A DNA stretch of 64,000 bases from contig JADMKP010000007.1 of the NCBI GenBank assembly GCA_015478775.1, forward strand, positions 62,001-126,000. Reading direction: 5' to 3'. Both the position numbers and the translations under genes were made by a program. Of the stretch, positions 47,392 to 64,000 are shown piece by piece (position 1 is the first letter of the stretch; each line of letters opens with the position of its first letter). The notes below the pieces were generated by a model, which saw only the letters and a program-made list of their open reading frames with translations, searched no databases and was not told the DNA's origin. This DNA comes from Fermentimonas sp. Lineage in GTDB: Bacteria; Bacteroidota; Bacteroidia; Bacteroidales; Dysgonomonadaceae.

Positions 47392-49686
47392 TTAATTTTC
47401 GTTTGTAAATGAATAAGGTGCATCTGATTTATTTACACCTCTCTTTTTATTTGGCTCTTCTGACATTTTAATATCAATATTAGCTCCCTTCACCAGATCT
47501 GAATGTTTAAAGTAGTTCTTAGTATAGTTTTTACCATTCATTTTTATGTTATCGATATATCTGGTATTATAATTATTGTTAGGTGAATTAATCTCAACCT
47601 TATTGCCATTTTCTAAATGTATTGTTGCTTTTTCAAATAGTGGCGATCCAATAACATATTCATCACTTCCAGGACAAACAGGATAGAAACCTAATGAAGA
47701 GAATACATACCAAGCAGATGTCTGCCCATTGTCCTCATCACCACAATAACCATCAGGGTTTGGGTTATAAAGCTTGTCCATTACTTCACGATTCCAATAT
47801 TGTGCCTTCCAAGGCTCTGCGGCATAGTTATAAAGATAAATCATATGTTGTATAGGTTGATTGCCGTGGGCATACTGACCCATATTCATTATCTGCATCT
47901 CGCGAATCTCGTGAATTACACCACCATAATAGCTATCATCAAATATTGGAGGCATAACAAATACCGAATCGAGCATATTTACAAACTCTTTATTGCCTCC
48001 CATAAGATCAATTAGCCCTTGTGTGTCATGAAAAACCGACCATGTATAATGCCAACTGTTTCCTTCAGTAAAAGCATCGCCCCATTTTGTAGGGCTAAAG
48101 GGCGACTGAAATTTACCGTCTTTATTCTTTCCTCTCATTAGCTTATACTCAGATGAATAAAGGTTTCTGTAGTTTTGACTTCTCTTTGCAAACAAATCAA
48201 TCTCCGCTTTAGGCCTCTTCAGCTCTTTAGCGAGCATATAAATTGTCCAGTCTGCATACGCATACTCCAGCGTTCTGGCAGCGTTCTCCTTAATACCAAC
48301 ATTATACGGAACATAACCTAAGGTATTATAATATTCATATCCCAAGCGACCAGTTGATGATACTTTTGGATGAACATTTTCTGTTCCGTGAAGCATGCCT
48401 TCATAAAGAGTCTCAATATCATAGCCTCTTAATCCTTTTAGGTATGCATCTGCAACAACCGAAGCTGAATTGTTACCAATCATAATTCCCCTATGACCTG
48501 GGCTAGCCCACTCAGGTAAAAAACCACTCTCTTTGTAAGTATTTACCAATCCCTCTTGAATCTCCATATTAACAGAAGGATAAACAAGGTTCAGGAGTGG
48601 AAATAATGCTCTAAATGTATCCCAAAATCCGGTATCAGTATACATATACCCAGGAAGTACTTCTCCGTTATATGGACTGTAATGCATAACTTTTCCATTA
48701 GCATCTATTTCATAAAACTTACGTGGAAAGAGTGTAGAGCGATATAATGTTGAGTAGAAGGTGCGCTGTTGATCCAGATTTCCACCTTCAATTTCAATCT
48801 TACTCAAAACCTCATTCCAAATGTCACGACCCTCTTGTTTAACAGCTTCAAACTCTTTGTCGGCAACCTCATTAAGGTTCAACCAAGCCTGCTCGTAGCT
48901 TATAAATGAAGAAGCCACCTTAGCAGTTATTTGCTCACCTCTTACAGTAGAGAAACCCACAAATGCACCTGAGTGTTTTGACTCAGATTTTAAACCACTC
49001 TCTTGTATTTCTTTGTCAGAAACAATACGAGTCAGTTCAAATGGTTTATCAAATACCACAACAAAATAGTTTTTAAAGTTTGCAGGAACACCACCACTGT
49101 TACGTGTTGTATAACCTATAATTGCATTTTTATCTTTCAGTACTTCTACAGCTGAACCTCTATCAAATGCATCTACAAGCACTATTGCGCTATCAGTTTC
49201 AGGAAAAGTAATCCTAAAGATAGCAGCGCGTTCTGTTGGTGTAACCTCTGTTGTAACATCATAATCAGCAAGGTAAGCACTGTAATAATATGGTTTTGCA
49301 ACCTCTGCTTTACGTGAAAACCAACTTGCTCTCTTTTCCTGATCAAATTCTAACTTATCAACCATTGGAAAAATTGAGAACTGACCGTAGTCATTCATCC
49401 ATGGACTTGGCTGGTGTGTTTGTTTAAAACCGTTAATCTTATTGTCAGTATAAGCATATTGCCATCCATCACCAATTTTACGTGTCTGTGGTGTCCAAAA
49501 ATTCATTCCCCACGGAAGAGCAATAGCTGGATATGTATTTCCATTTGATAAAGCAAACTCAGATTGAGTCCCCATCAGAATATTTACATAATCAACTGGA
49601 GTTTCATAATTTTGCGCTTTTATAGCCTCTAAACCAAAAGCTGATAACAGTATCAGTGCAATTATTAATAATTTTCTCATCATCAT
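47392..49686 (-). CDS. GH92 family alpha-mannosidase
   Basis: 764 residues, full length. Signal peptide about 1-25 (LLSAFGLEAIKAQ). The N-terminal beta-sandwich (DYVNILMGTQSEFALSNGNT) leads to the (alpha/alpha)6 domain with WDTFRALFPLLN, GNQPIQHMIYLYNYAAEPWK and GDEDNGQTSAWYVFSSLGFY, the calcium-dependent catalytic region of GH92. These exo-acting enzymes usually remove alpha-1,2-linked mannose by inversion. It sits 7 bases after the GH125 gene, which removes alpha-1,6 mannose, so the pair would trim N-glycan or yeast mannan ends in the periplasm. Confidence 0.95.
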   Translation of the reverse strand: MMMRKLLIIALILLSAFGLEAIKAQNYETPVDYVNILMGTQSEFALSNGNTYPAIALPWGMNFWTPQTRKIGDGWQYAYTDNKINGFKQTHQPSPWMNDYGQFSIFPMVDKLEFDQEKRASWFSRKAEVAKPYYYSAYLADYDVTTEVTPTERAAIFRITFPETDSAIVLVDAFDRGSAVEVLKDKNAIIGYTTRNSGGVPANFKNYFVVVFDKPFELTRIVSDKEIQESGLKSESKHSGAFVGFSTVRGEQITAKVASSFISYEQAWLNLNEVADKEFEAVKQEGRDIWNEVLSKIEIEGGNLDQQRTFYSTLYRSTLFPRKFYEIDANGKVMHYSPYNGEVLPGYMYTDTGFWDTFRALFPLLNLVYPSVNMEIQEGLVNTYKESGFLPEWASPGHRGIMIGNNSASVVADAYLKGLRGYDIETLYEGMLHGTENVHPKVSSTGRLGYEYYNTLGYVPYNVGIKENAARTLEYAYADWTIYMLAKELKRPKAEIDLFAKRSQNYRNLYSSEYKLMRGKNKDGKFQSPFSPTKWGDAFTEGNSWHYTWSVFHDTQGLIDLMGGNKEFVNMLDSVFVMPPIFDDSYYGGVIHEIREMQIMNMGQYAHGNQPIQHMIYLYNYAAEPWKAQYWNREVMDKLYNPNPDGYCGDEDNGQTSAWYVFSSLGFYPVCPGSDEYVIGSPLFEKATIHLENGNKVEINSPNNNYNTRYIDNIKMNGKNYTKNYFKHSDLVKGANIDIKMSEEPNKKRGVNKSDAPYSFTNEN

Positions 49687-49693
49687 AAATCTC

Positions 49694-51157
49694 TTATATA
49701 CTGTTTATTAAATTCATTTTACCTTTTCCCTCGAGATCGAGAATTAGCTCACCAAACAATGTATTCACCCATGCAAACCATGTTCTGGTAAAATAGGTTG
49801 GATCATTTTTATTGAACGACTCGTGCATAAATCCTGTGTCAGCGTCAGTATCACGTAGCATTTGCAAACAATATTTGATTTCTTCATCACTTCTGCTTGT
49901 CTGCGCTCGCATAATAATACTCATTGGCCAAACCATATCATAACCAATATGTGGACCACCAATACCTTCGCCAGCCGTACCTTTAAAGAAGAAAGGATTA
50001 TCTTCACTCAGTACAAATTTCCTTGTGTTCTGATAAATTCGGTCGTTAACATTCAAACCTTCCAGATAAGGCAATGCCAATAAACTAGGGATATTAGCAT
50101 CATCCATTAAAAATGCATTTCCAAAACCATCTACCTCAAAAGCATATATTTTTCCATACTTAGGATGTTCAACAATTGCATGCTTTTTGATTGCATCTTC
50201 AACCTCTTTAGCAAGAGCCAAACTTTTTGAAGCCAATTCAGAGTCCTTTGTTACTTTCTGTGCTATCTCGGCAAGTTGCTTAAGCGATGTTACGGCAAAA
50301 AAGTTAGAAGGAATAAGAAATTGGAATGTGGTAGCATCATCCGATGGACGGAATGAAGACACAATAAGACCAACGGGTTTAACAGGATTACCCCAACCAT
50401 CATTATTTAATGTGTCAAGCTGACGCTCTGTCTTTCTTTGGAATTTATAGGGACCCGTACCATCTTTTCTTTGCTGCTCTTTAAAAGTTTGAATAACAAG
50501 ATTCATTGCTTTTGTCCAGCGAGCATCAAAAACAGACGTATCACCTGTTGTTTTCCAGTAATTATACGCCAAACGAATTGGATAAGCCAGTGAGTCAATT
50601 TCCCATTTACGCTCATGTATTCTAGGATTCATTTGCGTCATATCACTCTGCCAATCCCCATCAGGCCTATCTTCATTATAGAATGCATTTGCATATGGGT
50701 CAACAATTATGCATTCAGTTTGCCTATTAATAAGTCCTGCTATCAACTGTCTAAGCTTATCATCCGAATTAGTTAGGGGCAAATATGGCCAAACCTGTGC
50801 AGATGAATCTCTCAGCCACATTGCATCAATGTCACCAGTTATCACAAAAGTATCTGGTCTACCATTTCTTATACTGAAATTCACAGTTGTATCTAAAGTG
50901 TTTGGGAAACAGTTCTCGAACATCCATGCTAATTTCTGATCCTTAATTAAAGGCTTTACTCTATTGATAGTATTTTCAACTGAATCTGAAGTGAAATTAC
51001 GTTCATTAAGAGGTAATCTCTTAGATACATACTTTTCCCTCTGTTTAACTGCCCTAACACTAGCGATAGAGTTATGAGATGCAATTTTAGACGGGTTTAC
51101 TGCAATTGCAGTTAACCCCAGTGCTGTTTTCTTGATAAAATTTCTACGTGATGTCAC
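49694..51157 (-). CDS. GH125 exo-alpha-1,6-mannosidase
   Basis: 487 residues. The N-terminus (MTSRRNFIKKTALGLTAIAV) looks like a twin-arginine-type signal. GH125/DUF1237 features are NTLDTTVNFSIRNGRPDTFV, GDIDAMWLRDSSAQVWPYLP, ADGF-like FEVDGFGNAFLMDDANIPSL and GGPHIGYDMVWPMSIIMRAQ, including the acid residues of the (alpha/alpha)6 site. It hydrolyses non-reducing alpha-1,6-mannose. First gene of a two-gene operon with GH92. No SusC/SusD pair is adjacent. Confidence 0.95.
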   Translation of the reverse strand: MTSRRNFIKKTALGLTAIAVNPSKIASHNSIASVRAVKQREKYVSKRLPLNERNFTSDSVENTINRVKPLIKDQKLAWMFENCFPNTLDTTVNFSIRNGRPDTFVITGDIDAMWLRDSSAQVWPYLPLTNSDDKLRQLIAGLINRQTECIIVDPYANAFYNEDRPDGDWQSDMTQMNPRIHERKWEIDSLAYPIRLAYNYWKTTGDTSVFDARWTKAMNLVIQTFKEQQRKDGTGPYKFQRKTERQLDTLNNDGWGNPVKPVGLIVSSFRPSDDATTFQFLIPSNFFAVTSLKQLAEIAQKVTKDSELASKSLALAKEVEDAIKKHAIVEHPKYGKIYAFEVDGFGNAFLMDDANIPSLLALPYLEGLNVNDRIYQNTRKFVLSEDNPFFFKGTAGEGIGGPHIGYDMVWPMSIIMRAQTSRSDEEIKYCLQMLRDTDADTGFMHESFNKNDPTYFTRTWFAWVNTLFGELILDLEGKGKMNLINSI

Positions 51158-51216
51158 AATAGTTTATTATTAATAAGTTATTAATATATTCTAAATGATG
51201 TAAGAATACGTTTCTT

Positions 51217-51690
51217 TTATTGTTCTGAAGTAAAGTTTATAGGGAATCTTTTTTTAAAAGCATCCTTAAAACTAATAAGTGTTTCTGTTCTGGCCAAACC
51301 AAGTGGTTGAAGTTCGGAATGAATTATACGTAGCAGGTCTTTATTGTTCTTTGCAACCACCTTTATTAAAATATCGTATTGCCCAGATGTATAGTAACAT
51401 TCTATAACCTCTGGAATTTTCTCCAGCTCCCTAACTACAAAATCAAAAGTAGAAGGAGAAGTAAGAAAGAGTCCTACAAACGCACAGGTCTCATAACCAA
51501 GCTTCTCTGGATCTACAATGTACTCAGATCCTTTAACAACACCAAGGTTGGTAAGTTTCTGCACCCTTTGATGTATGGCAGCACCAGACACATTACAAGC
51601 ACGAGCCACTTCCAAAAATGGAACTCGGGCATTTTCTACAATCATACTGAGAATTTTCTCATCCAGTTCGTCTAAATCATGATGGGCCAT
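51217..51690 (-). CDS. Lrp/AsnC family transcription regulator
   Basis: 157 residues. N-terminal helix-turn-helix (LDELDEKILSMIVENARVPF, then CNVSGAAIHQRVQKLTNLGV) and a C-terminal RAM ligand domain (CAFVGLFLTSPSTFDFVVRE, YYTSGQYDILIKVVAKNNKD). Such proteins sense amino acids. It stands alone between the mannosidases and a DUF1015 gene; its targets are unknown, though amino-acid fermentation genes in the window make good candidates. Confidence 0.93.
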   Translation of the reverse strand: MAHHDLDELDEKILSMIVENARVPFLEVARACNVSGAAIHQRVQKLTNLGVVKGSEYIVDPEKLGYETCAFVGLFLTSPSTFDFVVRELEKIPEVIECYYTSGQYDILIKVVAKNNKDLLRIIHSELQPLGLARTETLISFKDAFKKRFPINFTSEQ

Positions 51691-53651: not shown

Positions 53652-54368
53652 CTATACAAATTTCTCTCGCTTTTGTAAGTTTAGAAAGCCAATCATCAGC
53701 CAAACTATACCGCCTATTGACAGGAAAAGACGACTTTTTAAAAGTGTGTTTTGCCAAATCAGGGGGTGAGTTTCATTAGGCATAGAAAAAGGATTAAGAA
53801 AAACATTCCAATAAGAGTTAGACATCTGGTTATTACTGCCCATAAAAATAAAAAACAACAGACCCAAAACAATCATAATCACTGCTGTTCCATTACCACT
53901 TCGTGTTATAGTAGAAAACATAAAAGCAAAATTTCCAAAAAACAGCATTGGGAAAATGAGCTGGGCAGCCATCTCAAAAGGGTTAACCGGATATAGAAGG
54001 ATGCGGGCAATGTATGCAAAAATAACCAGTATGAAATAATTAGCCACATAAATCATCAGCATACGCACACCCCATACTTTATAACGATAGTTGGGAATCC
54101 CGAATATAATTTCTAAAATACGGTTGTCTTCATCGTTCTGAATACCAAAAACAACTGGGTAGAAAATAAGTAATAAGCATGGGAATAGTAACAGCCCATA
54201 TATCGAACCTTCGTTAATCTCTGCCCGATTCCATGCTTGCTGAAACATAAAAAAGGCGAAAAAAGCAAATGCTGCTAAAAAAAACCAGAAGAATTTACCG
54301 CCAAATATAATCTTTAAATTATACCGTACAATTTTGATGGTTATGTCTATATAATTTTTTAAACCCAT
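53652..54368 (-). CDS. ABC-2 type permease subunit of the hybrid efflux operon
   Basis: 238 residues with six hydrophobic helices (for example FFWFFLAAFAFFAFFMF, YGLLLFPCLLLIFYPVVFGI, YFILVIFAYIARILLYPV, IMIVLGLLFFIFMG) and the ABC-2 element IQNDEDNRILEIIFGIP after helix two, the coupling region that usually contacts the ATPase. It begins 4 bases after the stop of the RND-ABC fusion gene, so it is very probably the membrane partner of that ATPase. It has no ATPase of its own. Substrate unknown. Confidence 0.85.
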   Translation of the reverse strand: MGLKNYIDITIKIVRYNLKIIFGGKFFWFFLAAFAFFAFFMFQQAWNRAEINEGSIYGLLLFPCLLLIFYPVVFGIQNDEDNRILEIIFGIPNYRYKVWGVRMLMIYVANYFILVIFAYIARILLYPVNPFEMAAQLIFPMLFFGNFAFMFSTITRSGNGTAVIMIVLGLLFFIFMGSNNQMSNSYWNVFLNPFSMPNETHPLIWQNTLLKSRLFLSIGGIVWLMIGFLNLQKREKFV

Positions 54369-54372
54369 GGCT

Positions 54373-57300
54373 TCATATATTTTTCAGTAAACATAAATAT
54401 GCATCTTCCAGATTTGGCTCCACTAACACAGCTCCAGGGTAAGGCTCAACCAACGAGATATAACGTACCTGAATACGGTTTCCATCTTGGATATTATGCA
54501 CTACCAAAGATTTATCGAGCGTTTCATCCAACGACTCCTTATCAATTGAGAACTGCCATACTTTACCTACAGCCATATCAAGCATATTCTCCGGTTCCCC
54601 AAAGTACTTCAACTCCCCTTTGTCCACCACCGCCACACGGTTGCACGAGCTGGAGATGTCTTCTATGATATGTGTAGAAAATATTACGATTCTATCCTTA
54701 CTCAATTCTACCAGTAAGTTTCGGAAACGTATACGTTCACGAGGATCTAATCCGGCAGTAGGCTCATCCACCACAAGTATACGAGGTAGGTGAAGGAGTA
54801 TCAATGCAATCCCTATCCGTTGCTTCATTCCACCAGAGAATGAACCAATCTTATCATCTTTGCGCTCATACATACGCACCTCTTTTAATACATACTCTAA
54901 CCGTTCATTACGCAATTCTTTATCCGTTATTCCTTTCAAGATAGCTTGATAATCAAGAAACTCCCATGAGTTCATGTTCTCATACGTTCCAAATTCTTGC
55001 GGGAGAAAACCTATCAAACTCTGCAACTCTTCCCTATAAACACGCGTATCCAAACCGTTAATCCAGATACTACCATAACTTTGCTCTAAAATACCCGTGA
55101 TAATGCGCATCAAAGTCGATTTTCCAGCCCCGTTCGGCCCAAGCAAACCAAACATTCCTGTTTTTATTTCAAACGATACGCTGCGTAATGCTTTAAACGG
55201 TCGACGACGTTTTCCAATAAACGGAATGCTCATAACAAAGCGGAAATATGCTCGTCTTACTCCTTCAAACTTTCCGGTAATTCGTTCTATGTTGATATTC
55301 TTCGCATATAAATAATTAGAAGAAATATAAATAGCAATACCCAAACCCCATAACAGACCAATTACCAACACCATAGGAAGATTATCCAGCATTTTGTACA
55401 AGCCAAACAAGATTAAAGGGGGTAAACTCCAAAAAACAATCCGATTCAAGTATGTTACTGTCTTATTTCCATCGAAACGATAAAACAGATATGACCTAAC
55501 CTTACGCCATAAATACAAAGTGCCCGCATACATAACAAAAGACAAAAGAAAGCCCCACAACTTGCTATCAATATAAATGTAGGTAAAATAAATACCGAAG
55601 ATCCACAGGATAATTTGCCAGATGACATTGGTGAAATCTTTCATAGAACGATACTCACCACTTAGTCCCAATCGTCTACGTATTTCCAAACCACTGTTCC
55701 ACTCTCTAGTAAAACGACCAGATCTATCATATATCTTAACAAGGTTACGTACTTCAATATGTATCTCCTGATTAGGATCAATAACATTAGCTTTGGCACG
55801 ACGCAGACTAGTTTGTGCAAAAAAAGTGACTCCCGGAATAAGTGCTGCAAGTGCTGTAATGTAAAGCACTTGGTAAAGCATTCCTGCCACATACATATAT
55901 ATGCATGCTGTTCCAATTATGAAAAGGACGAGATGTACAATCTTTATTTTTGGCGACAAGCCCCGATACCACTCCAATGTGTTTTCCAATCCCATATTAA
56001 CCGTAGGTATAATAATAAGCGTTAATAGGGTTGAAAATGCTAGTCCCCCTATCACAGTGATAGCAAATGGAGCACCAATAGCCCCGGCGTACTCGTTGTC
56101 GCCCATTGCCAGTGGAAGCATAGCTATAATGGTTGTAATGGCAGTAATCAAGATTGGACGTATACGCGACAAACCTGCGGTAATCAATGCTCGTTCTCTT
56201 CGGAAACCTTGCTTCCTCAATATATTCGAATAATCAATCAAGATTATTCCGTTATTCACCACTACACCAATCAAGATAAGGAATCCCATTAATGTATTTG
56301 CGTTTAAAAGGCTATTTCCAGTAATGATTAATGCAAGCAAAGAACCAATAGCTGCCAATGGTATAGAAAAAAGCATTACCAAAGGTGTAGTAACCGACTC
56401 AAACACCATTGCCAAAATCATGAAAATAAGTAAAAAGGCAGCAATGATAAGGAATTTGAAATCTGCAAACTGATCTTCTTCGTGTACCACTTCGATAGCC
56501 ACTCCTGCCGGAAGGTTGTAATTAGCAATCAGCTGATCAATATCGCCCCGATACCCCTCAAGCAATGTTTTAGAACCCGTAACACTTCGTGAAAATCCGT
56601 ACTGAACATCCAACTGTTTATCTTGATTTATGCGAGTTATTCGAGAACGACCGTAGCCTTTGTTCACCGTTGCAATATCTCTTAGATTGTGCATGCCTCC
56701 GCTACTACTTAAAATCTGAACAGCTTCCAGATCATCAATGGTCTTTTGTCTACTCGTCTGCTCTTCTTCCTCTTCAGGCGTTTTGTCTCTGATAATAATA
56801 TCATAAGACTCTTCACCTACCTTGAAGGTTGTTCCCGACGAGAATTCAGTGTTTAGCTCTGATAATCCAGTAGTTATATTTGAGCGTGTTATACCGTATG
56901 AAGTGAGCAATATCTGATCAAAATCAAGAAGAATTTCAGGCTGTCGACTAGTAAATGATACTCGGGTACTTTGGATGAAATCTTGCTGTTCTAACTGATA
57001 TTGAATATCACCTGCTACCAGTTGCATCATTTCATAATCAGAACCTTTAATGACAATACGTTCCTGATTTTCGCCTATTCCCAGCAAACTCATGAAACCA
57101 ACTATTCCACTCAAACCTCCACTATTGCTTTGTCCTCCTCCCGTTGCATCTGCCACGAAAATCTCGCCACCCCCCATGTTAGGAATTTTGGCTTGCACAT
57201 CCGCCTTAATTTCGGATACAGTTCTCTTTCCTATTTTTCTAAAATTCTCTTGTAAGATGAGTGTTAACACCGCCTCTTCTTCGTTAACACGACTCATAAG

Positions 57301-59067
57301 GTCTTTCTTTTCTGGGATCTTTTCCAAGCGCTCCTCCAACACCCTAACCACGTTATCGGTGCTTTCCAACGTGCTTCCAGTAGGCATTGTTACATATATA
57401 TTAAACCTATCTGCATCAACCTCTCTTCGTTGCTGCGTGGCAGTGGAAAGCGATAAAAGCAGGGTAGCAAACAACAAAAGTATGGCTCCGAATATTGTTA
57501 TACCCGGATTTCGCATACATGCTTTTAGTAAGACAAGGTATACTTGAATAGGACGTTGCAATAATGAGACTTTCTGATAAAAAACACTTTTATTTCTTTT
57601 ACTCTTAAGAATAAAATAAGCAGCCATAGGAACAAACAATAACGCAACACCCAAGGAAACCAAGAGTGTAGAGATAATAGATACCCCTATGTGCATTCCC
57701 ATTAGCTTGAGTAAGAAGTTGTCTGAGAAAAGGAATGGGAGAAATATAATTACCGTTGTTAATGTCGCAGCCACTATCGAGCGCCACACTTCTTTTGTTC
57801 CCCGTTTAACCGAATCATCGGCTCGCATACCTGTTCCAGACAAACGGTAAATATTCTCAAGCACAACAATACTGTTATCCAGCAGCATACCTACAGCCAA
57901 TGCCATCCCTATAAGAGTAAGACTGTTTACTGAGATACCTGCATAGTAGAAAAAGTTGAAAGCCGTAAAAACAGATAACGGCATAGCAAGGGCAATTAAT
58001 AGCACCAAACGCACATTTTTCAAGAAAAACCAAAGAACAAATACTGCCAACAATACGCCAATTAGTGCAAGTTGAATGATTTGGTTAATGTTATTCTCCA
58101 TCGTTTCGGCAGTATTGGAGTCGACTACGATCTCCACGTCCAATACTTTCAATTGCTCATTCAATCGGTTTATTGTTGCTATAGTGCGATGAGATAAGTC
58201 AATAAGATTCGTTTGCGCATCATTAACAAGTGAAACTGAAATTGCGTCTTTCCCGTTAACACGGCTATAAGAAACCTCCTCTTTCAAATCGAAAAATAAT
58301 GTAGCCACGTCTTTCAACAAGATTGGTCCCGGAGCAATCACTAAATTTTCAAGATCCGAAACTTTGGTATACGACGAGTTAACGTGAACAAAATACTGAT
58401 TGTGTGTTTCATTAACAGTGCCCACGAATACTTTTTCGCGAGCATTGCTGCTCAACAAGTTGCTAATTCGAGAAGGAGTGATATTTAATGCATTACTAGC
58501 TTCCCTATCTAACTGAACCTCTATGGCTCGCTCACGCCCCCCGAAGACACTGATGCCAGCTATTCCATCAATATTTTCCAGTTCTGACACCACTTCCTCA
58601 TCAACTATATGACGCACACGATCTACACCTCCCGAACCGCGTATCTGTAACGACATGAACGTGTTGCTCATCATTGAGACGTCCATTTTTTGTACGCTCA
58701 CATTAAAGCCATTAGGAAGAGAAGCCGACATCTCCTTCATCTTTTCTTCCAGTCTCAGAGAAGTGGTCTTGAAGTTCACATTACTATTAAAATCAACGCG
58801 AATAGATGCTTGGCGACTACTTATCTCCGATTGTATTTTATCCACTCCCCCTACTGAGCTGATAGCACCTTCAAGAGGAATAACCACCTCAGATTCCAAG
58901 TAAGAAGGATCCATATCCTGCTGAGAGCTGACAGAAACGTACAGCATAGGCAATTCCGCATTGGGAAGTAATTCTACCGGCAATTGCTTATACGACACGT
59001 ACCCCAACAAGGTAGTGGCTATAAACAACATGCTGATTGTTATTCTTTTATTTAAAAGAAAGTTCAT
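54373..59067 (-). CDS. RND efflux pump fused to an ABC transporter ATPase
   Basis: 1,564 residues from the ATG at 59065-59067, which overlaps the stop of the upstream RND gene as ATGA; an ATG at 59091 is an alternative. Residues 1-1025 are a complete AcrB-type pump: N-terminal helix, PELLPN-like LPVELLPNAELPMLYVSVSS, helix-four Asp397-Asn398 (GMLLDNSIVVLEN), two porter regions and the second six-helix half. Residues 1040-1255 add about six hydrophobic helices. Residues about 1285-1564 are an ABC-2 type ATPase: Walker A 1310-1317 (GPNGAGKS), signature 1411-1413 (SFSGGMKQR), Walker B D1434-E1435, switch His1466. All motifs are intact, so it could use both proton motive force and ATP. Confidence 0.93.
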   Translation of the reverse strand: MNFLLNKRITISMLFIATTLLGYVSYKQLPVELLPNAELPMLYVSVSSQQDMDPSYLESEVVIPLEGAISSVGGVDKIQSEISSRQASIRVDFNSNVNFKTTSLRLEEKMKEMSASLPNGFNVSVQKMDVSMMSNTFMSLQIRGSGGVDRVRHIVDEEVVSELENIDGIAGISVFGGRERAIEVQLDREASNALNITPSRISNLLSSNAREKVFVGTVNETHNQYFVHVNSSYTKVSDLENLVIAPGPILLKDVATLFFDLKEEVSYSRVNGKDAISVSLVNDAQTNLIDLSHRTIATINRLNEQLKVLDVEIVVDSNTAETMENNINQIIQLALIGVLLAVFVLWFFLKNVRLVLLIALAMPLSVFTAFNFFYYAGISVNSLTLIGMALAVGMLLDNSIVVLENIYRLSGTGMRADDSVKRGTKEVWRSIVAATLTTVIIFLPFLFSDNFLLKLMGMHIGVSIISTLLVSLGVALLFVPMAAYFILKSKRNKSVFYQKVSLLQRPIQVYLVLLKACMRNPGITIFGAILLLFATLLLSLSTATQQRREVDADRFNIYVTMPTGSTLESTDNVVRVLEERLEKIPEKKDLMSRVNEEEAVLTLILQENFRKIGKRTVSEIKADVQAKIPNMGGGEIFVADATGGGQSNSGGLSGIVGFMSLLGIGENQERIVIKGSDYEMMQLVAGDIQYQLEQQDFIQSTRVSFTSRQPEILLDFDQILLTSYGITRSNITTGLSELNTEFSSGTTFKVGEESYDIIIRDKTPEEEEEQTSRQKTIDDLEAVQILSSSGGMHNLRDIATVNKGYGRSRITRINQDKQLDVQYGFSRSVTGSKTLLEGYRGDIDQLIANYNLPAGVAIEVVHEEDQFADFKFLIIAAFLLIFMILAMVFESVTTPLVMLFSIPLAAIGSLLALIITGNSLLNANTLMGFLILIGVVVNNGIILIDYSNILRKQGFRRERALITAGLSRIRPILITAITTIIAMLPLAMGDNEYAGAIGAPFAITVIGGLAFSTLLTLIIIPTVNMGLENTLEWYRGLSPKIKIVHLVLFIIGTACIYMYVAGMLYQVLYITALAALIPGVTFFAQTSLRRAKANVIDPNQEIHIEVRNLVKIYDRSGRFTREWNSGLEIRRRLGLSGEYRSMKDFTNVIWQIILWIFGIYFTYIYIDSKLWGFLLSFVMYAGTLYLWRKVRSYLFYRFDGNKTVTYLNRIVFWSLPPLILFGLYKMLDNLPMVLVIGLLWGLGIAIYISSNYLYAKNINIERITGKFEGVRRAYFRFVMSIPFIGKRRRPFKALRSVSFEIKTGMFGLLGPNGAGKSTLMRIITGILEQSYGSIWINGLDTRVYREELQSLIGFLPQEFGTYENMNSWEFLDYQAILKGITDKELRNERLEYVLKEVRMYERKDDKIGSFSGGMKQRIGIALILLHLPRILVVDEPTAGLDPRERIRFRNLLVELSKDRIVIFSTHIIEDISSSCNRVAVVDKGELKYFGEPENMLDMAVGKVWQFSIDKESLDETLDKSLVVHNIQDGNRIQVRYISLVEPYPGAVLVEPNLEDAYLCLLKNI

Positions 59068-62000
59068 CCTTTTCTCTTTGTTACCCTCCATTTCATTTGT
59101 TCAAAGACATAATAGACACACGGAATCACTACCAAACTCATTAATGTAGATGTAACAAGCCCCCCTATTACTGCCACTGCCATAGAGGAACGCATCGCTG
59201 CTCCTTCGCCGAAACTAAATGTCATAGGTAATAACACCAGAATTGTAGTGAGGCTGGTCATAATAATTGGCCGTATACGCTGTTGTCCCGCCTGTACAAT
59301 AGCCTCGGTTAAGTCCATTGTCTCCTTAAGCTGATTTATGCGTCCTACTAAGAGTATTGAGTTGTTAATGGCTATACCTGCAAGCATGATAATTCCCATC
59401 GCACCCATTATATTTAATGGTGTCCCGGTGATTAGGAAAATCAAAACAGCCCCCACCAAACCAAAAGGTATAGTCAATAATATAGTAAACGGATGCAACA
59501 ACGATTCGTATTGAGATGCCAATACCATGTAAACCAAAACCACCGAAAGCAATAAAGCAAACAATAGACTTTGCATAGACTCTTTTCGCTTCTCTTCTTC
59601 TCCGGTCACAGTAATTGAATAATTAGTAGAGAGTTCGATATCACTGACTGCAGCATTAATTTCCTGAGCCACCTTGTCAAGTGACCTGTTTGCATCTATG
59701 TTGGATACAATTTTATTTATTCGATTCTGGTTACGACGAAAAATTTCTTTAGGTGCTTGTGAACGGGTAATAGTGGCAATCTCACTCAATCTAAACTCCT
59801 GATTTCCGCTAGTAATTATCAAATCTTCTAATTCACTTGTGCCAATATCCGGCACTTTAATTACTATATCCCGCATTTCACCGCGATAATCCATTTTCCC
59901 AACCTCACGTCCTTGCAGTTGCTGTCCAATCTGCTGTATTACAGTGGCTACAGATATATTATTGATTCCCGCCATAGTGCGGTCGATATAAACATTAAGT
60001 TCTGGCGCCCCGTCTGCCATAGACGATTTCACATTATATATTCCGTCCACTTTTTCCATACGAGATAAAACATCGTCAGTTATAAAGGCTATTTCTTCCA
60101 GATCTTCTCCTTTTACCTCCACTACAATGGGAGCTTCCTCGTCGCCCAAAAAAGAGCCCAACGAATTATCATCCTGCTTAAAGGAAAGCTCCAATCCTTC
60201 AATATTATCTGTTGTTTCTACTAACCGTGCAATAACTACTTCAGGTGAGACCATACTTTGTTTAGATAACATAACCTTCATCATCGCCGTATGCTCTCCT
60301 TCAAAAATTTCGTTAACCGAAGAACCTTTCCCTATATGAGTGTAGATAGTGGCCAGGCTATCTTCACTAATTGTCTGCAATAGGTACTCCAAATTATTTA
60401 CAACGGCATCTGTTCGTTCAAACTTAGTACCTTCTGGTAATTTTACAGATATAGTAAAGTCTTTCCCTTCCATACGCGGCATAAACTCGGTGCCTATAAA
60501 AGGGATTAGTAATATTGTGGCTAAGAGTATAGCTGTTGAACCAATGATTACCCACCATCTATGATTGAGTAAACCCCGTAGCTGTTTGCTGTATCCTTTA
60601 AATTCCACCGCTTTTGTTTCGGTGCTAGCAATCTTTTGACCTGTTAACTTGTCGTATAACATTGGTATAACCAATAGAGCAACAAAAAGCGAAGACAGCA
60701 ATGAAAAAGTCACAGTCCATGCCAAATCTTTAAATAGTTCACCCGATGCGCCATGCATATAGACTATTGGGATGAACACCACGATGGTTGTCAAGGTGGA
60801 TGCGATAACTGCTCCCGATACTTCTGTTGTACCACTGATGATGGAATCTTTACGCTCAGCACCATGTTCGCGATTTCGGAATATGCTCTCTATTACCACA
60901 ATTGCATTGTCAATAAGCATACCTGCCCCCAATGCAAGGCCGCTCAATGTCATCACGTTAAGTGTGAGCCCATTGAAATACATCATTGTAAATGTGGCAA
61001 TTATGGATATGGGTATAGAAACACTCACTATTAGAGTTGTATCTATTCTTCGAAGGAAGAAAAACAGTACCAATACTGCAAGTATCATTCCAAAGAAAGC
61101 ACTGTTAATTACCTCTCCTATTGCTTGCTTAATAAAGGTACCCTGATTACCAATAACCTTAAAGCTGTAACCTGGTAATGCCTGTTCTATAACCGCAAGT
61201 TGGGCGGTTATTAAATCAACAGCCTTAACCGTATTGAAATTAGTTTCTTTATAAACCGATAAGCCAATGCAACGCTCACCGTTGATTCGTGTAATATTAT
61301 CGGGGCGAGCGTTTTCGAACTTAACAGTGGCTACTTCTCGTAAAAATAAAGGTGCGTTTTCTATATTGCTACTGGAAGCGGCACCAGATGCAGCAGCCTG
61401 TGTGGGCTTGTAGCTTACAATTAGGTTTTCGAAGTCCGATTCGGAGTTGAACAACGACGAGCTTTTTACTAGGTATTGCAATCCCAGTTCACTTACTCTC
61501 CCCCCAGAAATACTTTGGTTGTTAGTTTCGATTCTCGAAGCAATCTCTTCCATTGTTATACCAAAAGCATTTAAGAGGTAAGGGTCGGTTTCTATGGTTA
61601 GCACAGGCACCTCTTCACCCGACAAAGACACTTCGGCAATACCTTCAAGACGAATCAGCTCATTGCGGATATAACTATCTGCCATCTTGCGAAGCTCCGA
61701 CATATCTGTAATAGAATGGTGCGACATCGCAATAAGCATAACCGGCGCTGTATTTGGATCGTGTTGTGTGATATTGATAGATTCGATATCTGGATTCTGC
61801 GAGAACTGAGCAATTGCTTTTTGAAGATCTAAAAAGGCCTCATCCATATCTTTGTTTTGCAAGTACTCTACTGTTAAACGAGCAGACCCTGCTCGTATTA
61901 CTGAAGAAACTTGCACCACATCACTTTGCCTGATAGCCATCGACTCCATGCTTTCAACAAACATTTTTTCGATCTCTTCAGGTGGACGCTCACCAGCTTC

Positions 62001-62150
62001 GAACTCCACGAAGAGCCGCGGCGAATTCATGTCGGGCAGCAAATCCACACTTAGTCGGTCGTACGATATCTTTCCCAGCAGCAAGATAGCAAACACTATC
62101 ATACTGATGGTAACGGGATTTTTTAATGCGAATCGGAGTATATTTTTCAT
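59064..62150 (-). CDS. RND efflux pump permease (AcrB/MdtBC-like)
   Basis: 1,028 residues, standard length. N-terminal helix (NPVTISMIVFAILLLGKISY), PDMNSPRLFVEFEAGERPPE, the helix-four Asp414 (GMLIDNAIVVIES), a TEFMPRMEGKDFTISV porter start in the second half and the closing IPCVYYVFEQMKWR. It lacks extra domains. It lies between the adaptor and the RND-ABC fusion in one operon, 13 bases after the adaptor stop, and overlaps the fusion start by 4 bases. It may form mixed trimers with the fusion, as MdtB and MdtC do. Substrate unknown. Confidence 0.95.
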   Translation of the reverse strand: MKNILRFALKNPVTISMIVFAILLLGKISYDRLSVDLLPDMNSPRLFVEFEAGERPPEEIEKMFVESMESMAIRQSDVVQVSSVIRAGSARLTVEYLQNKDMDEAFLDLQKAIAQFSQNPDIESINITQHDPNTAPVMLIAMSHHSITDMSELRKMADSYIRNELIRLEGIAEVSLSGEEVPVLTIETDPYLLNAFGITMEEIASRIETNNQSISGGRVSELGLQYLVKSSSLFNSESDFENLIVSYKPTQAAASGAASSSNIENAPLFLREVATVKFENARPDNITRINGERCIGLSVYKETNFNTVKAVDLITAQLAVIEQALPGYSFKVIGNQGTFIKQAIGEVINSAFFGMILAVLVLFFFLRRIDTTLIVSVSIPISIIATFTMMYFNGLTLNVMTLSGLALGAGMLIDNAIVVIESIFRNREHGAERKDSIISGTTEVSGAVIASTLTTIVVFIPIVYMHGASGELFKDLAWTVTFSLLSSLFVALLVIPMLYDKLTGQKIASTETKAVEFKGYSKQLRGLLNHRWWVIIGSTAILLATILLIPFIGTEFMPRMEGKDFTISVKLPEGTKFERTDAVVNNLEYLLQTISEDSLATIYTHIGKGSSVNEIFEGEHTAMMKVMLSKQSMVSPEVVIARLVETTDNIEGLELSFKQDDNSLGSFLGDEEAPIVVEVKGEDLEEIAFITDDVLSRMEKVDGIYNVKSSMADGAPELNVYIDRTMAGINNISVATVIQQIGQQLQGREVGKMDYRGEMRDIVIKVPDIGTSELEDLIITSGNQEFRLSEIATITRSQAPKEIFRRNQNRINKIVSNIDANRSLDKVAQEINAAVSDIELSTNYSITVTGEEEKRKESMQSLLFALLLSVVLVYMVLASQYESLLHPFTILLTIPFGLVGAVLIFLITGTPLNIMGAMGIIMLAGIAINNSILLVGRINQLKETMDLTEAIVQAGQQRIRPIIMTSLTTILVLLPMTFSFGEGAAMRSSMAVAVIGGLVTSTLMSLVVIPCVYYVFEQMKWRVTKRKG

Positions 62151-62163
62151 TTATAGTACCCTA

Positions 62164-63216
62164 TTATTTCAATACTTTAACGCGGCTGTTTTCACGAAGC
62201 GTTTCGTATCCACGTATAATCAGGTTATCATTCTCATTTAGTCCTTCGGTAACTTCCATGTTATTTTCATCTTCAAGTCCCGTTTGAATATCACGCAGAA
62301 TAGCCGTATTTCTTTCTACTATATAAACATATTTTCTGTTTCTTCTTGTAAAAACCACTTCTTTCGGAATTATAATTGCACTATCCGCTTGGTTCACCAC
62401 GATATCTGCTTTTACAAACATACCAGGACGCAACTTCAATTGGTTGTTATCAATTAACACCTTTCCTTTAAATGTACGTGTTTCGGTGCTGATAGCGGGC
62501 GAAAGCTCACTTATTTCACCGCGAAGCGTGTCATCCTGCAAGGTATAGTGTGTAATATGCACCGGTTGATTTGCACTCACGTATTCAATTGCACTTTCTG
62601 GTAAATTTATTTCCATATACATTCGTGAATAAGCCATCAAGCCAACCATCTCCTCACCTTGTGTTACCCTGCTTTGTGGAGTATAGTGAGGTAAAGATAC
62701 GATTACTCCGTCGAAGGGTGCTCGCACGTTCATTTTCTCAAGGCTAAAGGTTGCGTTTTCAAGGTCGTACCTAGCATTGGTAACTCTCACTTCGGTATTG
62801 CGCATTTCACTCAATGTAACCCCACCCTTTTCATATAACGCATTTTGTTTGCTTTGCTCTTGTTCTGCAATTTCAAGACTTAATTTTTTAGATTCCAAAG
62901 CAATTCCGTTTTCAAACTCCTTATCTTCGAGGCGGATTATCAGCTGACCTTTTTTCATGGTGTCACCCAACTTAAATGATCTGCCGGTAGAAGGATTGGT
63001 CTGAAGGGTGTAAAGTCCACTCATCTCAGCATTGAGCACTGTACTATACGTGGCCATAGCCGTTCCGGTAGTGTTAATCAACCTACTGATGGAACCTTTT
63101 TTAAGTTCCTGCACAGAGACAGGTGTTTCAATCTCGCTTGGGCTGCTTTGTTGGGGATTACTACATGCAGCAATTAAAGCAAATATCACCGTAGATAATA
63201 AGATTCTGTATTTCAT
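62164..63216 (-). CDS. RND-type periplasmic adaptor lipoprotein (membrane fusion protein)
   Basis: 350 residues from the ATG at 63214-63216 (MKYRILLSTVIFALIAACSN); cysteine 18 in the lipobox LIAAC indicates a lipid anchor. Beta-barrel/lipoyl halves flank a helical hairpin (ESKKLSLEIAEQEQSKQNAL, then ARYDLENATFSLEKMNVRAP with the APFDGVI lipoyl return). The C-terminal part has LRPGMFVKADIVV and the membrane-proximal IVERNTAILRDIQTG. The frame is open to 63294, but that start would bury the signal. It bridges the pumps and the outer-membrane channel; 10 bases from the TolC-like stop. Confidence 0.94.
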   Translation of the reverse strand: MKYRILLSTVIFALIAACSNPQQSSPSEIETPVSVQELKKGSISRLINTTGTAMATYSTVLNAEMSGLYTLQTNPSTGRSFKLGDTMKKGQLIIRLEDKEFENGIALESKKLSLEIAEQEQSKQNALYEKGGVTLSEMRNTEVRVTNARYDLENATFSLEKMNVRAPFDGVIVSLPHYTPQSRVTQGEEMVGLMAYSRMYMEINLPESAIEYVSANQPVHITHYTLQDDTLRGEISELSPAISTETRTFKGKVLIDNNQLKLRPGMFVKADIVVNQADSAIIIPKEVVFTRRNRKYVYIVERNTAILRDIQTGLEDENNMEVTEGLNENDNLIIRGYETLRENSRVKVLK

Positions 63217-63226
63217 ATGATTATAA

Positions 63227-64000
63227 CTATTTATTTTCAAAGGTGCCAGCCCATTCTCTAATTGGTACAATGGGCATCTCATTTTCGAAGTCATACAATG
63301 TTAAAATTTTTAAGTTAAGGAGCTCAATCTTGTAATTTATAAGTGCCTGTGAATATGCCATTCTCCTATTAGACAACTGGGTTTGGAATTGACTTATTTC
63401 CATACCTGTGAGATCTCCTTCCCTATACCTTGTTTGATTTATATCGTAAGTAAGCTGTGCATTTCGAACGCTTTTTTCAGCTATATCAATTTGAGTACGC
63501 AAATTCTCAAGCCTTCTCCATGTTTGCCTAACCTCAAGTTCAATATCAATTCGTAAGTTTTCTTGCTCAAGTTTAGCAAGTGTTTGCGCTACTTGTTGCG
63601 CCCTCACCCTTGCCCTTTTTTCACCCCAGTCAAAAATGGGAACTGTCAAACTTATTGCCACGCGGGGGTTTTGTGTTGGGTTATCATAAATATTTTCAAA
63701 TCTTCGGTGGTCTCCAATGATTCCTACAGATAGGGAAATATCTCCCCTGAACTCATTGAGACTTTTGGTTTGTATCATTTGGAGATCGGCTAGTTTTATA
63801 TCAATTTCACGCTGCCTAAGCTCCATCCTTGAGCTTAGGCCACTCTGCACTGCCTGAAGCAAATCTATAGCTACAGGGCTCACTTCAATCTCTAGGGTCA
63901 CTTCTATATCCTCATCTAATGCCATCCCTAACGTTTGCTTCAGCTGATCCTTTGCATTTTCTAACGAAACCACTCGTTCTTCTACGGCAGATTGTGCATT
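63227..64000 (-). CDS. TolC-family outer-membrane efflux channel, C-terminal part (runs off right edge)
   Basis: 257 residues of the C-terminal half; the frame continues past base 64000, so a GTG at 63973 is not the real start. TolC repeat features are LEIEVSPVAIDLLQAVQSGL, LRQREIDIKLADLQMI, then VAISLTVPIFDWGEKRARV, a conserved outer-membrane-factor turn, and long helices (RAQQVAQTLAKLEQENLRID, DINQTRYREGDLTGMEISQF). It supplies the exit duct for the adaptor and pumps downstream and is the upstream-most visible gene of the five-gene operon. Confidence 0.93.
   Translation of the reverse strand, partial: NAQSAVEERVVSLENAKDQLKQTLGMALDEDIEVTLEIEVSPVAIDLLQAVQSGLSSRMELRQREIDIKLADLQMIQTKSLNEFRGDISLSVGIIGDHRRFENIYDNPTQNPRVAISLTVPIFDWGEKRARVRAQQVAQTLAKLEQENLRIDIELEVRQTWRRLENLRTQIDIAEKSVRNAQLTYDINQTRYREGDLTGMEISQFQTQLSNRRMAYSQALINYKIELLNLKILTLYDFENEMPIVPIREWAGTFENK

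Follow-up and report, generated by a model that had tools for sequence, protein, structure and literature searches.

Conserved fusion of an RND permease to an ABC ATPase within a seven-gene export operon of Bacteroidota: architecture, conservation and a possible coupling of two engines

RND pumps and ABC exporters are usually seen as alternative engines of tripartite export. In MacAB-TolC, for instance, an ATP-driven module feeds an adaptor and an outer-membrane channel, and ABC exporters of type V mostly transport lipids or hydrophobic compounds. In mycobacteria, DrrABC and MmpL7, the latter an RND transporter of the MmpL type, are separate polypeptides and are not known to have an adaptor/outer-membrane channel set. 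PDIM export is reported to require the type V exporter DrrABC (PMC11539658) as well as the RND transporter MmpL7 (PMC8427324), and MdtBC is described as a heterotrimer of B2C composition (PMC4462101; PMC7015380; PMC8277102). The locus described here unites an RND permease and an ABC ATPase covalently in a conserved manner, with partners for each. Searches of published, mostly open-access literature brought up no account of an RND-ABC fusion. Porphyromonas gingivalis PG0282-PG0283 and iron-regulated ABC/MMPL operons were considered as possible published examples and rejected, as no fusion is described in the passages on them (PMC4493947, PMC10434189).

The fusion gene lies on the minus strand, at positions 59067-54373 of the window, i.e., the whole 64,000-nucleotide stretch of Fermentimonas sp. 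DNA that was analysed. It encodes an unbroken protein of 1,564 residues in which an RND permease of the AcrB type is combined with six additional transmembrane helices and a complete ABC ATPase. The plus strand across the same region contains many stops. The mechanically called ORF (54373..59091, minus strand) has 1,572 aa. The ATG at 59067 is taken as the family start, since 30 of the 41 long fusion frames in related loci measure 1,560-1,569 aa and this ATG overlaps the stop codon of the preceding RND gene (RND1) as ATGA. Residues are numbered hereafter along the 1,572-aa ORF; subtraction of 8 gives the numbering of the earlier note on this DNA, which was made from the sequence alone. That note, which named no strand, had read a single polypeptide joining an RND pump to an ABC ATPase, as is borne out by matches well over the cut-offs to Pfam ACR_tran (PF00873; residues 9-1031, 510 bits against 28) and ABC_tran (residues 1302-1446, 92 bits against 25). 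The permease part, RND2 (residues 9-1031, 55999..59067, minus strand), contains the TM4 proton-relay aspartate D405 (Asp397 of the earlier note, equivalent to Asp407 of AcrB), and the ATPase part contains the Walker A lysine K1324 (its Lys1316), the Q-loop glutamine Q1365, the SGGMKQR signature, the Walker B motif VDEPTAGLDP (D1442/E1443) and the switch histidine His1474. Each of these is invariant in 40 of 40 aligned full-length sequences, in agreement with the claim that the catalytic residues are intact. A frameshift or stop between residues 1025 and 1285, which had been named as a possible refutation, was looked for, and none occurs in the fusion frame.

The fusion is the sixth of seven genes, arranged in the order NBDA (an ABC ATPase), large ABC-2-like permease, outer-membrane channel, adaptor, RND1, fusion and small ABC-2 permease. 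A scan with one genome per species yielded 56 loci, from which two with an ATPase match only (L112, L113) were dropped; the remaining 54 overlap in part with the genomes of a same-genus and same-order set (the window genome and 60 relatives). The genes found constitute a contiguous run of the seven in unchanged order in 54/54 loci, edge-cut or split frames being taken as present. All seven are present in 30 loci, and in a 31st (L066) once its small permease is counted; the apparent absence of that gene was rejected because an antisense ORF had been picked, and tblastn finds the gene at 73% identity. The small permease thus follows the fusion in 44 of 44 loci (43 by ORF picking), and RND1 precedes it in 39 of the 39 readable ones, while the genes flanking the seven vary between genera. 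The genes of the unit that fall within the window lie on the minus strand: the small permease, predicted to have an ABC-2 (type V) fold, at 53652..54368 (238 aa, P0002), RND1 at 59064..62150 (1,028 aa, P0003), the periplasmic adaptor (MFP) at 62164..63294 (TIGR01730, 186 bits against a cut-off of 94.9) and the outer-membrane efflux channel (OEP) at 63227..64000, where it is cut by the window edge. The true start of the adaptor is probably Met27, followed by what looks by eye like a lipoprotein signal. The whole channel gene spans L054:1228-2736 (502 aa; PF02321, 153 against 22 bits), and the genes beyond the window end are those of the large permease (L054:2777-6478, minus strand, 1,233 aa) and NBDA (L054:6468-7361, 297 aa). 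With both adaptor and channel present, the tripartite efflux set is complete. Elsewhere in the window, at 47392-51690 (minus strand), GH92 and GH125 glycosidase genes lie beside an AsnC-type regulator and likely make up a mannoside utilisation group.

Full-length ACR_tran domains are found in both RND1 (692 bits) and RND2, and the relay aspartate of RND1, D414, is invariant (44/44). The second TM4 aspartate and the TM10 lysine of AcrB are absent; both positions are occupied by asparagine in RND2 (N406 and N946, 40/40) and in RND1 (N415 and N929, 44/44). The same DN/NN pattern occurs in unfused RND proteins (L035, L147, L148), which excludes the relay of AcrB itself and preserves membership of the RND family; judged from these residues, the relay of both permeases is of a single-Asp type. 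Against the MdtB and MdtC families, with cut-offs of 1584 and 1774 bits, the fusion scores 250 and 248 bits and RND1 359 and 375 bits, respectively. The earlier note had remarked that three ATPases per trimer would be an unusual stoichiometry. Such a number is not needed, since the second, different RND permease ahead of the fusion in 39/39 loci makes it likely, by analogy with MdtBC, that RND1 and RND2 assemble as a heterotrimer, in which case each pump would carry one or two fused ATPases. A further RND gene in the window's genome, at G000:C12:217361-221119 (L006-L008), has a frame of 1,297 aa, longer than that of a usual RND permease.

On the ABC side, the fused ATPase and NBDA are reciprocal best paralogues within the genome, at 243 bits with the runners-up scoring 112 and 132, and the catalytic motifs of NBDA (Walker A lysine, Q-loop glutamine, signature, Walker B Asp-Glu and histidine) are invariant in 19 of 19 sequences. 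Both ATPases score below the family cut-offs of GldA (402.6 bits; fused ATPase 177.7, NBDA 187.8) and DrrA (312.45 bits; 165.9 and 195.2). The model of the small permease has an ABC-2 fold, with a best Foldseek E-value of 0.06. At the sequence level, ABC2_membrane_3 matches 2 of its 27 members (best E 0.001), two unrelated families match more often, at weak scores (4/27 members each), and a search of this sequence against solved structures returned no ABC protein, its one chance match having an E-value of 0.27. The large permease gives weak matches to ABC2_membrane_2, which reach E<=1 in 16 of 18 members (best 2.1e-6), the protein of the window species standing below the cut-off (19.7 against 27.2 bits). 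Profile comparison of the small with the large permease detected no link (hhalign probability 0.3%). The large permease is also extended by a sizeable extra part, which comprises a stretch weakly resembling M1 aminopeptidases, with the zinc motif HExxH in 0 of 18 members, and a C-terminal domain resembling golvesin/xanthan-lyase domains. In the window species it includes a low-complexity stretch rich in arginine, proline and glycine, and is about 110-130 aa longer overall than the homologues of Bacteroides and Parabacteroides. Among the Pfam domains listed for the proteins scanned here, there is neither an FtsX nor a MacB periplasmic domain. The second ATPase and the two ABC-2 or ABC-2-like permeases, a context that goes beyond the earlier note, provide the ABC half of the fusion with a set of partners.

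Between the RND and ATPase parts, the six extra helices that the earlier note had counted, roughly, are seen both by hydropathy and in an AlphaFold2 model, although the linker that they compose also holds the predicted first strand of the ATPase. The model covers residues 868-1572 (705 residues; mean pLDDT 77, pTM 0.49), and given this pTM the packing of the helices on the RND part is unreliable. Following the RND part, the order is a first hairpin of two helices (residues 1047-1100, 55792..55953), a strand with an A-loop-like Tyr1121 (1112-1121, 55729..55758), four transmembrane helices (1150-1263, 55303..55644) and the remaining ATPase with all the motifs listed above (1298-1572, 54376..55200), all on the minus strand. 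The NBDA profile matches the fusion only from its position 14-17 onward (40/40), so that the contiguous part of the fused ATPase lacks the first strand. By sequence alone, a match of the same profile to residues 1112-1121 was non-significant, the one weak instance being in L086 (1106-1126, E 6.5). Within this strand, V1118, K1119 and Y1121 are invariant (40/40). Structural alignment with solved ABC ATPases sets in at model residue 240-245 (ORF 1107-1112) in 49 of the 50 matches listed and, on the side of the solved chain, at residue -1 to 5 in 47 of the 50, leaving about 175 model residues, the four-helix stretch, unaligned. In the case of E. coli MalK (2r6g), chain range 2-224 comprises 223 residues, and 220 of these find a counterpart within model range 243-639. 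Because such alignments report range ends only, the strand position and the skipped stretch are deduced from the counts. Conservation and model thus converge on residues 1112-1121 as the predicted first strand of the fused ATPase fold, which would place four of the six helices within the ATPase domain. The ATPase fold is present but is predicted to be interrupted rather than contiguous. Every one of the 50 Foldseek matches listed for the 705-residue model is to an ABC ATPase or transporter, including 9a6w_B, which we take to be one. The possibility that the linker is a third ABC-2 permease was rejected, profile comparisons with the small and large permeases giving probabilities below 1%.

Natural variants retain the strand and differ in what follows it. 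In the fusion of L137 only two helices follow the strand, and in that of L138 one passes the threshold and another is probable by eye; as long as helices are lost in even numbers, the ATPase would not change sides of the membrane. In L135 (G407:C62) and L136 (G650:C34), an extra soluble stretch, serine/glycine-rich in L136, lies between the strand and the four helices. Architectures in which a transmembrane domain interrupts an ABC ATPase domain are unusual among proteins.

The fused frames, the invariant motifs of both ATPases and both RND permeases, the fixed gene order, the paralogy of the ATPases, the modelled ABC-2 fold of the small permease, the weak ABC-2 matches of the large one, the docking of strand 1112-1121 in the model and the MdtBC and DrrABC/MmpL7 precedents argue for a single trans-envelope machine; against it were counted the null hhalign result for the small and large permeases, the weak matches of the small permease, the pTM of 0.49, the asparagines at the relay sites and the patchy presence. 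We give roughly an even chance to the reading in which the fusion is the coupling subunit of one export machine encoded by the seven genes, its ABC step passing the substrate to its RND step. RND1 and RND2 would form a heterotrimeric, proton-driven pump docked on the adaptor and the outer-membrane channel. The C-terminal ATPase of RND2 would pair with the stand-alone NBDA, and both would drive a heterodimeric type V exporter with the large and small permeases as its membrane halves, pairings that gene order and paralogy suggest. The six extra helices may keep the fused ATPase beside the RND trimer; with four of them built into its domain, the ATPase would be clamped to the membrane, as opposed to hanging on a flexible tether. 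The ABC module would use ATP to carry a hydrophobic, probably lipid-like substrate (a class guessed from the type V fold) across or out of the inner membrane and would hand it over to the RND trimer, whereupon the proton gradient would drive its export via adaptor and channel. This order of events, ATP first and proton gradient second, is the leading mechanism, at a probability of about one half, with gating or force transmission next. That one substrate passes through the ABC and the RND engine in series, the two being covalently linked by a helix-threaded ATPase, with ATP hydrolysis and proton flow mechanically coupled, is an idea to which we assign slightly less than an even chance. The dual-energy exporter proposed in the earlier note is compatible with the invariant relay aspartate, the ATPase motifs and the complete RND and ABC parts in one operon.

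A clearly less probable alternative, the best placed of the competitors, holds that the ABC module does not itself carry a substrate, and that the fused ATPase gates, assembles or mechanically drives the RND pump, adaptor or channel, with the ABC-2 permeases as force transmitters. The four helices in the ATPase domain would pass force directly, and the large extra part of the large permease, with its weakly M1-like stretch devoid of HExxH and its golvesin/xanthan-lyase-like end, could serve as a scaffold or lever. However, a permease with a standard type V fold, as modelled, follows the fusion in 44/44 loci, and exporters of this type, as stated above, are mostly carriers of lipids or hydrophobic compounds.

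It is unlikely that two separate exporters are merely tethered, whether as an RND2 homotrimer with three ATPases or as a homodimer of the fused ATPase with two small permeases, NBDA and the large permease acting independently. Each ATPase gene does adjoin its own permease gene, and a trimer with two RND2 subunits would supply exactly two fused ATPases, but the two ATPases are each other's closest paralogues, the seven-gene order is kept in 54/54 loci and RND1 precedes RND2 in 39/39.

Still less credit, and very little, goes to the idea that the tether only co-localises or co-regulates, one half having lost transport to become an anchor or sensor: the aligned family shows no variation at the catalytic residues of either half, even if the patchy presence of the unit, in 14 of the 37 genomes of the genus (the window's own genome counted), implies that it is dispensable.

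The seven-gene unit with its fusion is carried by many Bacteroidota in a patchy manner, and the refuting case named in the earlier note, a fusion absent from all relatives, was answered within the genus, the order and the phylum sample. Outside the family, a close relative of the fusion occurs in 5 of 24 genomes of the order, among them G050, whose contig ends ahead of the junction. When a profile was built from just the linker, it matched 53 of 393 genomes of the order, 52 after a weak, stop-bearing match (G557) is dropped, and 7 of 395 in an even sample of the phylum, 6 after the same was done for G128; both counts include the window's own genome. Five listed genomes from other genera of the same family gave no match to this profile. 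When the RND part was searched in the 395 phylum genomes (E cut 1e-100, best two candidates scored per genome), at least 50% identity was found in 6 genomes, the own one included, and all 6 are fused; no unfused member of this clade was seen, and the next relatives are at 30% identity, unfused and encoded in frames of 1,009-1,206 aa. Named hosts include the cultured isolates Bacteroides faecis MAJ27, Parabacteroides goldsteinii and Proteiniphilum acetatigenes DSM 18083, which make the unit open to study, as well as Portibacter and Lewinella.

The same survey bears on the integrity of the frame. Among the 54 loci, the RND part, linker and ATPase share one frame in 45, 8 are cut by a contig end and one, L084, is a broken draft. 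Fusion frames in the phylum sample measure 1,561-1,640 aa (6/6), and in the 52 genomes of the order they are open over 1,515-1,640 aa in 44 and shorter in 8, of which 7 are open at a contig edge and the eighth has a match beginning at base 5 of its contig. In G031, which shares its contig with L064 (counted among the 45), the frame is 1,486 aa long and lacks the ATPase end, and in G011 the fusion is spread over two contigs. Stops apparently lying inside the frames of G005 and G007 were dismissed, as they fall upstream of the start and the genes read 1,563-1,564 aa stop-free. G050 was likewise rejected as a split ancestor or intermediate: its contig stops before the junction, cutting the RND gene, and the ATPase found there is the separate NBDA gene. 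An assembly artefact or annotation fusion, to which the in-frame stop of L084 near the RND-linker junction might point, is already refuted and retains a negligible probability, for that single draft shows additional breaks of frame, both within the fusion gene and in the genes of the large permease and the channel, whereas 44 of the 52 order genomes have the long frame and 7 of the 8 short ones are open at contig edges.

With the two covalently united, it becomes directly testable whether a substrate can pass from an inner-membrane step driven by ATP to an outer step driven by protons, and whether two energy sources are mechanically coupled. Comparison with the described systems sets its particulars in relief. 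Like MdtABC and MuxABC, the unit has two unlike RND permeases side by side together with an adaptor, here within a full tripartite set; unlike MdtABC, which to our knowledge includes neither an ATPase nor an ABC permease, it contains both, and its RND scores are far below the MdtB and MdtC family cut-offs. The unit differs from MacAB-TolC, in which we know of no RND permease, by its RND permeases and by having no listed FtsX or MacB periplasmic domains. The NosDFY, ABCG and ABCA exporters are also of type V (ABC-2), but their ATPases are, as far as we know, neither interrupted by helices nor fused to an RND pump. A functional parallel is the mycobacterial couple of DrrABC and MmpL7, a type V ABC exporter and an RND transporter which are both reported to be needed for one substrate; in contrast to that couple, the unit described here joins an RND permease and an ABC ATPase in one polypeptide, and both of its ATPases score below the DrrA cut-off.
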